The notes beneath the pieces are model-generated. The model did no database searches and was not told where the DNA came from. It saw nothing but the letters and a program-made list of their open reading frames with translations. The position numbers and the translations under genes were made by a program. From a virus: a DNA stretch of 49,623 nucleotides. Positions 37,311-49,621 of the stretch are shown in pieces. The DNA is taken from IMG/VR virus record IMGVR_UViG_3300042934_001137, positions 1 to 49,623 of that record; one strand, 5' to 3'. Positions within the stretch are counted from its first letter, which is position 1. Each line of letters begins with the position of its first letter.

Positions 37311-37350
37311 TTGTTTCAGTTTATCAGCTCCTTCGTTTTATAAATAAAAA

Positions 37351-37382
37351 TACCGTAAAATTCATTTCTGAATAATACGGTA
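37351..37382 (-). terminator. terminator of boxA cassette 1
   Basis: On the minus strand TACCGTATTATTCA-GAAA-TGAATTTTACGGTA folds into a long hairpin (7-bp outer stem, a two-base mismatch, and an inner stem with a GAAA loop), followed by TTTTTATTT. Its 5' arm is complementary over 16 bases to the boxA-linked sequence upstream of the same gene (38410-38425). Confidence 0.78.
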
Positions 37383-37402
37383 TTTTATAAAGTTATTTAT
37401 TT

Positions 37403-38293
37403 TTATAAGTCTAGATAAAAATACAGCCATCCATATTTTTTAGAAAAATCTATCTGATTTTTAATATCTTTTGCGGACAGATACAAAGCATATGGGTTGG
37501 GTATTGGTAAAGGTATATTACTGGCTATTCCGTTAATAGATGATTTTATAGGGGCTGGTTTCAATAACTTCACAAACTCTATCATATCTTTTCTTGATAT
37601 TTCTTCAATAATTTCTCCTACAACCTTAGAATCATTCTGATTTAAAAAATCATTTAGAGATTTCATCTTCAGTCTAAAACTTTTCAAATAATGATGATTT
37701 CTAAGCTCAATTACTTTGTCCCATGAAAACTCGTCAATATCAGGTATTTTAAAGTTAATAATGTTGCTAAATAATTCATAGCCTTGATCCTGAAATGAAC
37801 ATTTAAACATTTTTTCCAATACAAGTTTTTCTCCTAGATTAGGAATTAGAAAAACATCTTGTGATTTTCTCAGCTCAGTCCAAGTCTCAATACCACTTAT
37901 AATTCCTGACATCGCAAATAAATCATCTCCAGGTAATCCAAAATTATATTCGTGTTGCAATTTATCATCAACAATTTGCTTGGTAGCCAACAATAACCTT
38001 TTATCCTCGGTCTTTTCAGGAGAATAAAAATAGTATTTCCAAGTGTCTAAATAGTTATTTAATGGAATAATAACTTTATTTAATTCTTGGATTGTGTCAT
38101 GACTTAACTCTTTAATTAAACCAAAATCTTCTATCTCTTCTTTTAAAATTTCTTTACTTTCATTTAATCCAGGGATTGTTTGAATTATTATATCATCAAA
38201 CCAAAGTGTAGCAATTTTACTACTTTGTGTAGAAAAATAAAAGTTATCTAATTGAAAACTATTTGCTGAAAAATATGCTTTTGTTCCACTCAT
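37403..38293 (-). CDS. accessory protein of boxA cassette 1
   Basis: A 296-residue soluble protein from ATG at 38293 (GGAGGG five bases before; longer starts lack a site). It begins MSGTKAYFSANSFQLDNFYF and is rich in Asn, Asp, Phe and Ile. No motif recognised. Its private promoter, terminator and location among tightly overlapped replication genes show it is an inserted gene, probably expressed by the lysogen. Defence or exclusion is a guess from context only. Confidence 0.7.
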   Translation of the reverse strand: MSGTKAYFSANSFQLDNFYFSTQSSKIATLWFDDIIIQTIPGLNESKEILKEEIEDFGLIKELSHDTIQELNKVIIPLNNYLDTWKYYFYSPEKTEDKRLLLATKQIVDDKLQHEYNFGLPGDDLFAMSGIISGIETWTELRKSQDVFLIPNLGEKLVLEKMFKCSFQDQGYELFSNIINFKIPDIDEFSWDKVIELRNHHYLKSFRLKMKSLNDFLNQNDSKVVGEIIEEISRKDMIEFVKLLKPAPIKSSINGIASNIPLPIPNPYALYLSAKDIKNQIDFSKKYGWLYFYLDL

Positions 38294-38347
38294 AAGACCC
38301 TCCATATTATATGGTATCATCAACCAAATTAGTTAACTATTATAAAA

Positions 38348-38370
38348 ATTATACCATACCTCAGGATTTT
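38348..38370 (-). promoter_or_regulatory. extended -10 promoter of cassette 1
   Basis: TATGGTATAAT has a perfect extended -10 (TGnTATAAT, -10 at 38348-38353), and TATGGTAT forms an inverted repeat with ATACCATA downstream, a possible operator. The -35 is weak. Confidence 0.55.
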
Positions 38371-38411
38371 ATATAATATATTAAGCCTATTCTAAGAATC
38401 ATTTTATTCAA

Positions 38412-38439
38412 TACCGTATTATTCAGTTTTCAAAGAACA
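38412..38439 (-). promoter_or_regulatory. boxA-like antitermination element upstream of cassette 1
   Basis: On the minus strand TGTTCTTTGAAAACT (38425-38439) matches the boxA sequence of Gram-positive rRNA leaders and spacers, followed at once by GAATAATACGGTA. It begins 11 bp after the stop of the 38450-38617 gene, within the early transcript. Confidence 0.65.
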
Positions 38440-38449
38440 TATACTTTAG

Positions 38450-38617
38450 TCAGATAACCACACAATCACTTTTAAGTATGTGGCTACCTTCCGTTTTCTT
38501 ATCCTTAACCTTTACTAAGTAATCCTTGTCTAACTCTTTAACTACATCCAAGACCTTGCCTATAGATCTATTCCACCATGCCCCTTCCTTGGAGCACTTA
38601 ATTACAATTATTTTCAC
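38450..38617 (-). CDS. 55-residue early phage protein
   Basis: From GTG at 38617, with GGAGGG five bases upstream; an overlapping ATG would stop at once. MKIIVIKCSKEGAWWNRSIG, then a KVKDKKTEGSHILKSDCVVI end, suggests a small beta-barrel (SH3/KOW-like). It lies between the 38628 gene and the boxA element. No known family. Confidence 0.65.
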   Translation of the reverse strand: MKIIVIKCSKEGAWWNRSIGKVLDVVKELDKDYLVKVKDKKTEGSHILKSDCVVI

Positions 38618-38627
38618 GTCATCCCTC

Positions 38628-39419
38628 CTAAGCGCATTTTATTAATCTTGTTACCCGGCTTCTATGTATTGCAGTTTCTCTTGTATTATTATCAAAAGAG
38701 ATATTAAGAGTCTCATTACCTGATCCGTATATATGAACAATTTCACCTTGTATTAATCTTTGGCCATGCTGAGCCTCGATAAAATCTCCAAGCTTTATAG
38801 CCTTTTGAATATCTTCAATGTTTGCTTCTACTGTACGATCCTGTCTATCCACTTCATCATTTTCATACACAGCTCTGCAGCCCTGGTATTCTAAAGTCCA
38901 TCCTATTGGATTGATGCTTATCACTTTATCAGGAAGCTGAACCTGAATTCTATCATCAGCTTTTCGCCTTATAACAATTCCCTCAGGATTTTCTTTAAGT
39001 ACTTCTTTAAGCTTCTCCTCCTGCATGTTATTAATAACGCTTTGGAAAAATTTATAATAAATTATCCTATCCATAAGAAGCACAGGCAGTTTCTTCCCTG
39101 AAGTAAATTCTTCTTTTCCTTGTTTATTTATATAGATAGTCTTATATCCTTCTTCATTAAACAGCTCTATCCCGATGCCTCCACCACAGTAATGGATTAT
39201 CCTTTCTAAGTTATTAAAGCCCTTATACTTGTCTATAACCTTTCCCTGCTTCTCTGTGTACGAATTGCCTATTTCCGTTACTTTTTGTTCAGTTTTTATG
39301 AACGAAACTGGCTTTTCTGTGACTTTCTTATGCTTTTCCGTCATTTCTATATCCCAAAACGTAATCTGGCCAGGAAGCATATATTCATGCTTATTGCTAT
39401 TACTCTTTTTACTTTTCAT
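38628..39419 (-). CDS. hypothetical early phage protein
   Basis: A 263-residue protein from ATG at 39419 (AAGGAG nine bases before). The N-terminus is low-complexity, with repeats of TEKxxKVTE (residues about 27-60), followed by a mixed domain ending in a beta-barrel-like region (GDFIEAQHGQRLIQGEIVHIYGSGNETLNISFDNNTRE). It lies next to RecU, which suggests a replication/recombination role. Confidence 0.6.
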   Translation of the reverse strand: MKSKKSNSNKHEYMLPGQITFWDIEMTEKHKKVTEKPVSFIKTEQKVTEIGNSYTEKQGKVIDKYKGFNNLERIIHYCGGGIGIELFNEEGYKTIYINKQGKEEFTSGKKLPVLLMDRIIYYKFFQSVINNMQEEKLKEVLKENPEGIVIRRKADDRIQVQLPDKVISINPIGWTLEYQGCRAVYENDEVDRQDRTVEANIEDIQKAIKLGDFIEAQHGQRLIQGEIVHIYGSGNETLNISFDNNTRETAIHRSRVTRLIKCA

Positions 39420-39436
39420 GAATAACAACTCCTTTC

Positions 39437-39913
39437 TTATAATTTATCTATAAGTATAGGTCCTAAATCATATCTGTATCTTACTCTCTTTTTCTCTGAT
39501 GGGATTTCTGTCCCATGCTCTATGCACCACTTAATAGGAATTGATTTTCTAGAAGTATTCTCTATAAAGTCTTTTAATGAAGAAGCTTCAACAGCATAGG
39601 TGCTTTGTATATCCTTAAAGTTAATCAGGAAGTATGGCTTTATTTTTTTATGACTAACTTTGGACATATCTTCTATTTGATTTTTCCTTATGCAGCTTAT
39701 AGGAAAGTTTGTCCCTGTATGAGATTTAAGCTCTAACAACAGCAACAAATCTCTTGCCATCACTATAAAGTCACATATATTACTTGAAGTAAATCTAGTA
39801 TTATCTCCACCTTGCCAGGTGCCAGCACTATCTCTTAGTCTATATACCCAACACCATTCAGGAAGAGATTTCTTTATATCTTCCTCAAACCTCTTTCCGG
39901 AATTACTTGGCAT
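39437..39913 (-). CDS. RecU-like Holliday junction resolvase
   Basis: A 158-residue protein. SGKRFEEDIKKSLPEWCWVYRLRD and FTSSNICDFIVMARDLLLLLELKSHTGTNFPI are RecU hallmarks; D48, E61 and K63 give the nuclease D-ExK core. It resolves recombination junctions made with the ERF protein. The gene overlaps the end of the HNH gene by 11 bp. Confidence 0.87.
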   Translation of the reverse strand: MPSNSGKRFEEDIKKSLPEWCWVYRLRDSAGTWQGGDNTRFTSSNICDFIVMARDLLLLLELKSHTGTNFPISCIRKNQIEDMSKVSHKKIKPYFLINFKDIQSTYAVEASSLKDFIENTSRKSIPIKWCIEHGTEIPSEKKRVRYRYDLGPILIDKL

Positions 39914-40268
39914 AAATCTTTCCTCCCATACACCTCATGACAATATCAATCCTAGAAAATCCTTTATCACCATTTGGATTTAACCTTTTTATGAACTTAT
40001 ATATACCTAGATCAGTTAAACCTAGAATTTCTTTAATCTCTGATGCTTTATAATAGTTTTGAGCGAAAGCTTTAAATAGCTGTGCTTGTAACTCAAGCTT
40101 GTACTTCATATCGGTGTCCCTATTTAGATGTGGCCCTTCATTTCCTTTGTGATGATCTATGCATAAAGACTTTTTATTTAGCTCTACATTAACCATATAA
40201 GAAGCTTTTGACCTAAAAACTATATGATGTTCCTCCGCTACCCTACCGCATATTTCACAATATTTCAT
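39903..40268 (-). CDS. HNH-type zinc protein with C-terminal helix-turn-helix
   Basis: A 121-residue protein. CEICG near the N-terminus, followed by EEHHIVFRS and CIDHH, is a compact HNH/zinc site; residues about 75-121 (KASEIKEILGLTDLGIYKFIKRLNP) look like a helix-turn-helix. It may cut DNA or bind it next to RecU action. It is translated from GAAGGAAGATG. Confidence 0.7.
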   Translation of the reverse strand: MKYCEICGRVAEEHHIVFRSKASYMVNVELNKKSLCIDHHKGNEGPHLNRDTDMKYKLELQAQLFKAFAQNYYKASEIKEILGLTDLGIYKFIKRLNPNGDKGFSRIDIVMRCMGGKIYAK

Positions 40269-40355
40269 TTAATCATCTTCCTTCATTTGATTTTCACTTG
40301 ATAAATTCAAGGTAAAACTATAGCCTTACGCCGTCCTAATCTTGAATTGCGACGT

Positions 40356-40391
40356 AAAAAAACCGCACTATCCATCTTTTGAATAATACGG
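40356..40391 (-). terminator. terminator of boxA cassette 2
   Basis: On the minus strand CCGTATTATTCA-loop-TGGATAGTGCGG pairs over 12 positions (three G-T) and ends in TTTTTTT. The 5' arm is complementary to the sequence beside the second boxA element (41046-41057). Confidence 0.82.
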
Positions 40392-40407
40392 CACCGAAAA
40401 ATACTAT

Positions 40408-40953
40408 TTAATTATAACTATAGAATGAACTAATTGCTTCCGACAGCTCTCTTTGTTCATTCTCAACCCTTTGCTGTTCAATATTGATTTCTGTAAGTCT
40501 AATGCTTGTTTCCTCTGCTGTTAAAAGCTCTTCTGGAACATACTTGTTTAAATTTCCACTTTCATCCCTACAAATTATTTCTGACTTTAGAATTTTGATT
40601 ACTACCATTTTTTTAGGCTTTTTCGAAGTTTTTTCTATTTTTAATATAACAATATCACCTTGCTGAAATTTGCTTATATTTTTATTAGAAGGATTCAATG
40701 CTTCTTCATAATCTCTCTTTAAAGTAGTGTACTTTTTAAACAATATAATTATGTTAATAATAGTCACTAATAAGATGATTATAAATAAAATGACAATAGG
40801 CAATCTTATTTTAAGTTCAACAGAATTTATCTGTTGAATAAAACTTGGCAAAACAGCAATAAATACAGTTATAACAGATGCAATTACAGATTTCACATTA
40901 TCTTTCATATAATCCCAAACAGATTCTTTTAATAAAGCACCAAACTTCTTCAT
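40408..40953 (-). CDS. membrane protein of boxA cassette 2
   Basis: A 181-residue protein with an amphipathic N-terminus, two hydrophobic helices (about 22-40 and 52-72), then a cytoplasmic beta/helical part (FQQGDIVILKIEKTSKKPKKMVVIKILKSEIICRDESG) and a C-terminal coiled coil. GAGG precedes the ATG. It has its own promoter and terminator, and is inserted between early genes. Superinfection exclusion or another lysogeny function is possible. Confidence 0.68.
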   Translation of the reverse strand: MKKFGALLKESVWDYMKDNVKSVIASVITVFIAVLPSFIQQINSVELKIRLPIVILFIIILLVTIINIIILFKKYTTLKRDYEEALNPSNKNISKFQQGDIVILKIEKTSKKPKKMVVIKILKSEIICRDESGNLNKYVPEELLTAEETSIRLTEINIEQQRVENEQRELSEAISSFYSYN

Positions 40954-40980
40954 AACATACCTCGCAACACAATAATTTAA

Positions 40981-41021
40981 TTTATACTTCCTTATATTTA
41001 GTATATCAAACTATATAGTTT
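40981..41021 (-). promoter_or_regulatory. promoter and palindrome of cassette 2
   Basis: TTGATA (41004-41009) and TATAAA (40981-40986) are 17 bp apart. AAACTATATAGTTT (41008-41021), a 14-bp palindrome, overlaps the upstream side of the -35 and could be an operator. Confidence 0.55.
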
Positions 41022-41043
41022 TGAGATAGAAATATTGTTAAGT

Positions 41044-41071
41044 TACCGTATTATTCAATTTTCAAAGAGCA
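41044..41071 (-). promoter_or_regulatory. boxA-like antitermination element upstream of cassette 2
   Basis: On the minus strand TGCTCTTTGAAAATTG (41056-41071) is a boxA-like sequence (the TGCTCTTT form as in enterobacterial boxA) followed by AATAATACGGTA, the same arrangement as at 38412-38439. Confidence 0.65.
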
Positions 41072-41112
41072 TTATCAGAAATATCAGTTTCTATAGTTAC
41101 TTCGCTTAATGT

Positions 41113-41220
41113 TCATATTCCATCACATTTCTTAATTTTTATTCCAGTAAGACTAAGATTGAATAACTGTTTCTTAATTTCATCTATACCACTTTTCCAG
41201 CCTTGTCCACATTTATACTT
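41113..41220 (-). pseudogene. fragment of a small early phage gene
   Basis: KYKCGQGWKSGIDEIKKQLFNLSLTGIKIKKCDGI can be read without a start codon. The CGxGW...IDEIKKQL pattern recalls a phage protein family that normally continues with a conserved KEKFGGL region, absent here. It ends 42 bp from the second boxA element, so it may have been cut when cassette 2 was inserted. Confidence 0.35.
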
Positions 41221-49092: not shown

Positions 49093-49137
49093 TTGGTGCG
49101 CCTGACAGGAGTCGAACCTGCGACCATTGGATTCGAA
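49093..49137. repeat. right attachment site, 45-bp direct repeat within tRNA-Arg
   Basis: Identical to 8876-8920. It forms the 3' part of the intact tRNA-Arg gene, from the anticodon loop through CCA, so integration left the tRNA functional. Confidence 0.92.
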
Positions 49138-49170
49138 GTCCACTACTCTATCCAGCTGAGCTACAGGCGC
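49094..49170 (-). tRNA. tRNA-Arg (TCG), integration target
   Basis: 77 nt including CCA. Acceptor GCGCCTG/CAGGCGC pairs fully, the T-loop is GTTCGACTC, and the anticodon loop is CTTCGAA (anticodon TCG). The 3' 45 bases are the att repeat. Confidence 0.92.
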
Positions 49171-49215
49171 ATAATATGTTATAAGCCCAAAATCAAAGAT
49201 TTTGGGCTTTATGTA

Positions 49216-49289
49216 TGGAGCGGGTGATGGGAATCGAACCCACACGACCAGCTTGGAAGGCTGGGATTCTACCATTGAACTACACCCGC
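49216..49289 (-). tRNA. tRNA-Gly (TCC)
   Basis: 74 nt with encoded CCA. Acceptor GCGGGTG/CACCCGC; anticodon loop CTTCCAA in a CAGC/GCTG stem. Confidence 0.94.
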
Positions 49290-49294
49290 AAATT

Positions 49295-49369
49295 TGGAGC
49301 GGAAAACGAGATTCGAACTCGCAACCTTCACCTTGGCAAGGTGACACTCTACCGTTGAGTCATTTCCGC
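49295..49369 (-). tRNA. tRNA-Gly (GCC)
   Basis: 75 nt with encoded CCA. Acceptor GCGGAAA/TTTCCGC (one wobble or mismatch allowed); anticodon loop TTGCCAA in a CACC/GGTG stem. Confidence 0.93.
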
Positions 49370-49373
49370 AAAT

Positions 49374-49457
49374 TGGTGCAGATGACAGGAATCGAACCTG
49401 CACGCCGTAGGCGCTAGATCCTAAGTCTAGTGCGTCTGCCAGTTCCGCCACATCTGC
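49374..49457 (-). tRNA. tRNA-Leu (TAG)
   Basis: 84 nt with a long variable arm and encoded CCA. Acceptor GCAGATG/CATCTGC; anticodon loop CTTAGGA. Confidence 0.94.
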
Positions 49458-49467
49458 ATATTTATTT

Positions 49468-49543
49468 TGGTGGCTCACCGGGGAATCGAACCCCGGACAC
49501 CATGATTAAAAGTCATGTGCTCTACCGACTGAGCTAGTGAACC
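49468..49543 (-). tRNA. tRNA-Lys (TTT)
   Basis: 76 nt with encoded CCA. Acceptor GGTTCAC/GTGAGCC with one G-T pair; anticodon loop CTTTTAA. Confidence 0.94.
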
Positions 49544-49546
49544 ATT

Positions 49547-49621
49547 TGGCAGGGATAGCAGGATTCGAACCTACGAATACCAGAGTCAAAGTCTGGTGCC
49601 TTACCGCTTGGCGATATCCCT
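49547..49621 (-). tRNA. tRNA-Gln (TTG)
   Basis: 75 nt with encoded CCA, complete up to two bases before the window end. Acceptor AGGGATA/TATCCCT; anticodon loop CTTTGAC. Confidence 0.92.

Follow-up and report, generated by a model that had tools for sequence, protein, structure and literature searches.

The window, that is, the whole 49,623-base stretch of the virus record IMGVR_UViG_3300042934_001137, comes from a Clostridium-type phage and has its early region on the minus strand, where a DnaD-like loader, RecU and HNH are encoded. It also contains two accessory gene cassettes (Table 1) that share one order of elements: a boxA, a segment R (TGAATAATACGGTA), a promoter, a gene, and R′, the complement of R, which forms the 5′ arm of an intrinsic terminator. 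Exact boxA copies occur in the window twice, once per cassette, and nowhere else. The segment TGAATAATACGG is present at exactly four window sites, twice beside boxA (38414-38425 and 41046-41057) and twice as its complement in the terminators (37369-37380 and 40380-40391). An earlier, sequence-only reading of this DNA had described a boxA-like motif followed by GAATAATACGGTA on the 5′ side of two unrelated genes with matched terminators. Both boxA copies are exact and TGAATAATACGG adjoins each, confirming this observation, which extends beyond the window to about 100 distinct loci. The same reading held that the 5′ arm of each terminator is the exact complement of R; this is true of cassette 1 (16/16) and not of cassette 2, where the match runs for about 13 nt and then diverges. 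R:R′ duplex energies are −20.5 kcal/mol for cassette 1 (16/16 paired) and −18.5 kcal/mol for cassette 2 (nearly complete pairing), to be compared with the hairpin energies in Table 1. The cassette 1 hairpin is imperfect exactly where R:R′ is perfect, as the 3′ arm (TGAATTTTACGG) mismatches R′ at bases that R (TGAATAATACGG) matches.

Table 1. Parts of the two window cassettes.
Feature	Sequence	Position	Strand	Remarks
Cassette 1 boxA	TGTTCTTTGAAAACT	38425-38439	-	exact; core TCTTTGAAAAYT as in Clostridium rRNA leaders
Cassette 1 R element	TGAATAATACGGTATT	38410-38425	-	abuts boxA; 16/16 complementary to R′; covaries with R′ family-wide
Cassette 1 private promoter	extended −10 TGGTATAAT	38348-38356	-	3′ of R; family enrichment and fixed position
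Cassette 1 gene		37403-38293	-	296 aa from ATG (306 aa from TTG at 38323)
Cassette 1 R′, terminator 5′ arm	AATACCGTATTATTCA	37369-37384	-	
Cassette 1 intrinsic terminator	3′ arm TGAATTTTACGG	37346-37386	-	hairpin of −14.9 kcal/mol and T-run
Cassette 2 left flank	TGAACATTAAGCGAAGTAACTATAG...	41069-41116	-	resembles left end of dispersed cassette unit
Cassette 2 boxA	TGCTCTTTGAAAATT	41057-41071	-	exact
Cassette 2 R element	TGAATAATACGGTAAC	41042-41057	-	
Cassette 2 private promoter	extended −10 TGATATACT	41000-41008	-	
Cassette 2 gene		40408-40953	-	181 aa
Cassette 2 R′, terminator 5′ arm	GGTGCCGTATTATTCA	40380-40395	-	
Cassette 2 intrinsic terminator		40356-40397	-	hairpin of −15.3 kcal/mol and T7
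Cassette 2 right end	ACGTCGCAATTCAA	40342-40355	-	inverted relative of left flank

The roughly 100 loci with this architecture lie in clostridial prophages and Clostridium chromosomes, and their genes are very diverse, mostly single, with some in arrays. A scan of IMG/VR with TCTTTGAAAAYTGAATAATAC returned 26 contigs, nearly all with the complement of R 490-1170 nt downstream and usually inside a terminator. Among 84,980 species genomes a scan found 46 such loci, nearly all of them in Clostridium and a few in Alkaliphilus, Tissierella, Hathewaya, Maledivibacter and Anaerosolibacter. A longer pattern matched 9/391 Clostridia genomes (reversed control, 0) and, in an even draw of 398 genomes of the phylum, the centre genome alone; the cassettes are found almost only in Clostridia and their phages. 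We defined a set of sites by boxA-TGAATAATAC (n = 57), a pattern independent of R′, nearly all of them outside the window genome. A complement of R matching at least 12 of 14 positions was present 120-2500 nt downstream at 50/57 of these sites and at 0/57 with shuffled R. Upstream complements of the same quality were found at 11/48 sites and plausibly stem from neighbouring cassettes, as a partial check indicated. A lack of boxA enrichment near phage cassettes in relatives, which would have refuted the sequence-only reading, was not what we observed. If these were ordinary phage morons with standard terminators, as an extra gene with its own promoter and terminator inside a phage operon might suggest, the likeness of R and R′ would be due to chance or shared ancestry. 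This explanation is largely refuted by the shuffled control, by the covariation described below and by the presence of the same unit in chromosomes and arrays, and we give it almost no credence.

To measure covariation between R and R′, terminators were picked by TATTCA, a hairpin and a T-run alone, blind to the variable bases of R, yielding 88 pairs with eight free positions. Watson-Crick pairs were formed at 610/704 positions, compared with 528 ± 6.9 in permuted sets (maximum 560 in 20,000 permutations), a z-score that is inflated by related sequences, for which the G·U bias and a within-genome test are the more robust controls. Standard pairs made up 95% of positions in register and 27-49% when the strands were slid by 1-4 nt. 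In a larger set, limited to cassettes with no other boxA between R and R′, 103/115 pair at five or more of the eight free positions. Among the mismatches of this set, G·U outnumbered A·C (79 vs 27, p = 4e-7; 60:23 among unique pairs, p = 6e-5), the signature of pairing in the sense RNA. The mean R:R′ energy was −19.9 kcal/mol, against −13.9 kcal/mol for the terminator hairpin, with R:R′ the stronger in 98/103. Joint changes of R and R′ with the terminator 3′ arm unchanged were seen at four loci (L137 5257, L080, L109 and L223). The median distance from R to R′ is 762 nt and spans a whole gene. One hallmark of an antiterminator, a second partner for the 5′ arm of the terminator that is preserved by covariation, is present here. 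At the level of sequence, these comparisons show R:R′ pairing, its coevolution and the existence of a cassette family.

The same helix might act mainly as a processing stalk, at which RNase III would release the cassette mRNA in the manner of the rRNA leader-trailer helix, with any effect on termination secondary. The anatomy is rRNA-like, with a boxA leader and a complementary trailer (PMC10250234), R:R′ is a helix of 13-16 bp, and there is partial complementarity between the flanks that lie beyond boxA and the terminator as well (own-flank energy below all 5000 permutations). R′, however, is exactly the terminator 5′ arm and not free spacer, so that forming the stalk would necessarily destroy the terminator, and the length of the helix does not exceed about 16 bp. 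We regard a primary role in processing as unlikely.

Each cassette gene was also proposed to have a private promoter. A generic promoter scan of the cassette region did no better than chance (17 found, 20.2 expected), and the promoter assignment thus rests on a position test across the family. Of 102 leaders, 68 have the extended −10 motif TGnTAnAAT between R and the gene, compared with 3 upstream and 8 in shuffled sequence, and its positions cluster at +38/39 and +87/88 relative to boxA. This bears out the private promoters and sites them after boxA-R; because the −10 lies at fixed distances 3′ of R, RNA initiated there would lack both boxA and R. The cassettes are generally co-oriented with their surroundings (upstream genes, 78/96; downstream genes, 86/94), and the cassette genes themselves are in sense in 91/93; binomial p-values for this co-orientation are overstated, since bacterial and phage genes are commonly co-oriented anyway. 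Promoters placed after boxA-R and terminators matched to R together lend support to the logic of the sequence-only reading, in which transcripts from the private promoter would stop while read-through transcripts would go on.

The boxA itself was compared with that of the rRNA operons. In C. tagluense and C. hydrogeniformans, an rRNA boxA (TCTTTGAAAATTAA / TCTTTGAAAATTAAACAG) is positioned 90-204 nt upstream of the 16S start; 16S starts in these genomes were placed by the 16S start motif, as a covariance search for 16S there gave nothing. Because the same core precedes 16S in the same genomes, the core of the cassette boxA (TCTTTGAAAAYT) equals the boxA core of the host rRNA operons, in agreement with the identity claimed earlier. 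Exact boxA without a matched R′ was also seen before pilin-like genes on plasmids of Enterococcus faecium (pZB18) and Vagococcus (L089 3504, L091 3504) and in regions of Streptococcus and Bacillus phages (L084, L088). As some boxA sites have no detectable R′, boxA has other uses; the plasmid and phage copies suggest a wider use of boxA in Firmicute mobile elements. At four further loci (L027, L037, L048, L066), TTCTTTGAAAACTGAATAGGATA is followed 280-560 nt on by TATCCTATTCAGTTTTTAGAGAG; this inverted copy takes in part of boxA itself, and no obvious terminator accompanies it.

The principal idea of the sequence-only reading was that boxA alone makes the polymerase processive through the cassette, in which case the R/R′ match would be a by-product of terminator duplication. 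The exactness of boxA, and its occurrence without R′ before Enterococcus plasmid operons and in Streptococcus phages, would be expected under this model. R, however, follows R′ and not the terminator 3′ arm, and the targets described for the Nus/boxA complex in the absence of phage N are Rho-dependent termination and RNA folding (PMC5725501), not intrinsic terminators. Termination resistance conferred by boxA alone is unsupported as stated, and we consider it very unlikely. The same reading had mentioned that the complement could also act as an antiterminator; this is the option most favoured by the data, given the R:R′ covariation, the wobble bias in the sense RNA and a predicted stability above that of the terminator hairpin.

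We inspected the cargo of 54 cassettes and found one sense open reading frame (ORF) in nearly all and two in a few. Among 54 cassette proteins, both window genes included, 34 Pfam families are represented, nearly all of them by a single occurrence; among the 25 families listed are Abi_alpha, DUF1697, chloramphenicol acetyltransferase, isochorismatase, HD, DJ-1/PfpI, PadR, Cass2, 2′-5′ RNA ligase, AraC and GNAT, and NCBIfam matches add FosX and AlaX. The 296-aa protein of cassette 1 had no match in Pfam, PHROG, PADLOC, NCBIfam or PDB; its single remote homologue is plasmid-borne (29% identity), and a search of viral contigs found no relatives of its gene. The 181-aa protein of cassette 2 had no Pfam or PHROG match.

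Different genes lie between conserved cassette parts. A related phage (L003) carries a different gene (170 aa) in a cassette at the site of window cassette 2, and its cassette 1 site has none. At the would-be cassette 1 position of this phage (5640-5990) lies a short insert between CAACAAAAGTTTGTT / AACAAACTTTTGTTG inverted repeats. Together with the promoter test, the comparison reveals what defines a moron: a gene with its own promoter and terminator that is variably present between phage genes. Five related loci of clostridial prophages, with 90-95% identity in their upstream flanks, retain boxA-R and the terminator around different genes. In two prophages (L161 and L197), an opposite-strand row of paralogous small secreted proteins (about 100-110 aa, N-terminal 'GIY' motif) is located 5′ of the cassettes.

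Confinement of the cassettes to phages was tested and not observed. Solitary copies occur in the chromosome of C. tagluense, and co-oriented chromosomal series in C. hydrogeniformans, C. tagluense (contig 62) and C. mobile, the last with 10 boxA-type sites (one probably spurious) and 16 plus-strand terminators within about 66 kb. The family is therefore not phage-specific, and the framing of the sequence-only reading, phage transcription in its early and lysogenic states, is too narrow. Within the genus of C. tagluense, both the left and the right cassette end recur as dispersed repeats whose outer borders are sharp; at their outermost parts the two ends are related in inverted orientation (CGACGTAA / TTACGTCG). 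The array junctions of C. tagluense contig 62 (L287; ACGTCGYACTTCAAA-ACTATTGCTAGGCAAT-TTGAGAAAAGGYCGACGT) are imperfectly palindromic and in this resemble an attC-like site. We compared joined cassette flanks (a 2937-nt query from five cassettes, the last in part) with 17 genomes of the genus, and no other genome's match spans the junction that would mark an empty site. No recombinase was found for the cassettes; no search aimed at an integron integrase was made.

Such ends, the arrays and the swapping of genes between conserved ends would also suit R and R′ being DNA elements, such as inverted ends or recombination or operator sites of a mobile cassette, without a role in RNA pairing. R and R′ are internal to the unit, however, beside boxA and within the terminator, the spacing of the promoter from R is fixed, and a DNA site leaves the sense-strand excess of G·U over A·C unexplained. 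A DNA-element role may hold for the outer ends without accounting for R:R′, for which we find it quite unlikely.

Elsewhere in the window, six consecutive tRNA genes lie at its end (49097-49621, minus strand), beside opposite-strand ORFs at 46.9-49.0 kb; the row may be a host tRNA cluster at a prophage attachment site or a phage tRNA cluster. In an Rfam scan of the window at gathering level, tRNAs were the sole matches, and no known RNA family was found for the cassettes.

Weighing these comparisons of sequence, we consider it rather probable that the cassettes are portable and contain their own termination switch, in which a boxA-tethered R captures R′ and blocks the cassette's own terminator in read-through RNA. 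A transcript from an upstream gene of the surrounding operon would include boxA and the adjoining R. NusB-NusE would bind boxA, which would stay on the elongating polymerase and keep R at the RNA exit channel, with the gene between them and R′ forming a loop. As R′ emerges, it would pair with R ahead of the weaker terminator hairpin, the terminator would fail, and transcription would enter the downstream operon. Transcripts from the private promoter, beginning 3′ of R, would lack boxA-R and end at the terminator. With the former passing and the latter stopping, the cassette would be self-expressed and yet transparent to, and free of polarity in, its host operon. Without a tether, a partner at a median of 762 nt is expected to compete poorly with a local hairpin. 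For the boxC that adjoins boxA, retention at the RNA exit channel and pairing with the 16S trailer have been proposed (PMC10250234). We infer tethering, actual read-through and mobility of the unit, and the sequence-only interpretation as a whole is partly supported.

Several points weigh against this mechanism, among them the inflated permutation score. Within a genome, R pairs better with the R′ of its own cassette than with those of the other cassettes (p = 0.015 when Watson-Crick pairs are counted), a modest preference that is not significant once wobble pairs count (p = 0.1); the test is weak because most of R is common to the cassettes of one genome. No R′ was detectable at 7/57 boxA-R sites, and boxA sites without a matched R′ occur in several other phages and plasmids. 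Binding of NusB-NusE to the cassette boxA is something we infer from its sequence, and boxA is not known to bypass an intrinsic terminator unless a phage protein takes part.

If the switch operates as proposed, it would explain how terminator-bearing accessory genes are inserted into essential operons without silencing downstream genes. By anchoring an RNA partner, boxA and the Nus factors would come to act against intrinsic terminators, and boxA-tethered leader-trailer pairing would become testable on a small, non-essential reporter. More tentatively, the cassettes could constitute a new class of clostridial mobile cassette with integron-like cargo and arrays, each unit having an RNA antiterminator, anchored by boxA, that matches the unit's own terminator and being able to enter any co-oriented phage or chromosomal operon without polarity, with Nus factors opposing intrinsic terminators by RNA capture and not by polymerase modification; this is possible, and we hold it with less assurance than the switch itself. 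The family points to a system of gene sharing in Clostridia that has so far gone unrecognised; CatA-like and FosX-like resistance families and an Abi_alpha-type defence family are among its cargo. In a literature search limited to open papers, we found no description linking boxA with clostridial prophage cassettes.

The closest parallel is the rRNA boxA with its leader-trailer helix (rrnTAC; Warner et al. 2023, PMC10250234), where the segment after boxA pairs with a trailer hundreds of nt downstream and anchoring of boxA at the polymerase has been proposed. In the cassettes, by contrast, an intrinsic terminator supplies its 5′ arm as the trailer, and what would loop out is a protein-coding cassette. 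Attenuators with antiterminator hairpins likewise have an alternative partner that competes for the terminator 5′ arm, whereas the cassette partner sits past a whole gene and beside boxA, with no ligand known. In conAn of pLS20 (PMC8955417), canT of Tn916 (PMC11658703) and, as those papers describe, HK022 put and EAR, an RNA element enables transcripts of one promoter to run through terminators that stop others; on pLS20, RNA from a weak internal promoter ends at an internal terminator through which the main transcript continues (PMC8955417). Those elements modify the polymerase for many terminators, whereas R of a cassette is matched by sequence to one terminator and has no co-encoded protein.

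Like phage morons, the cassettes place an extra gene with its own promoter and terminator between co-oriented phage genes; they differ in adding a putative boxA-R antiterminator at the start, shared ends, and occurrence in chromosomes and arrays. With integron cassettes they share single, diverse accessory genes, common ends and co-oriented tandem arrays, as well as cargo (GNAT, DUF1697, CatA-like, FosX-like, isochorismatase and the integron-associated Cass2 family). Integron cassettes are mostly promoterless and without a terminator, whereas each clostridial unit has a fixed extended −10 and a terminator of its own, and the units are distributed almost only among Clostridia and their phages.

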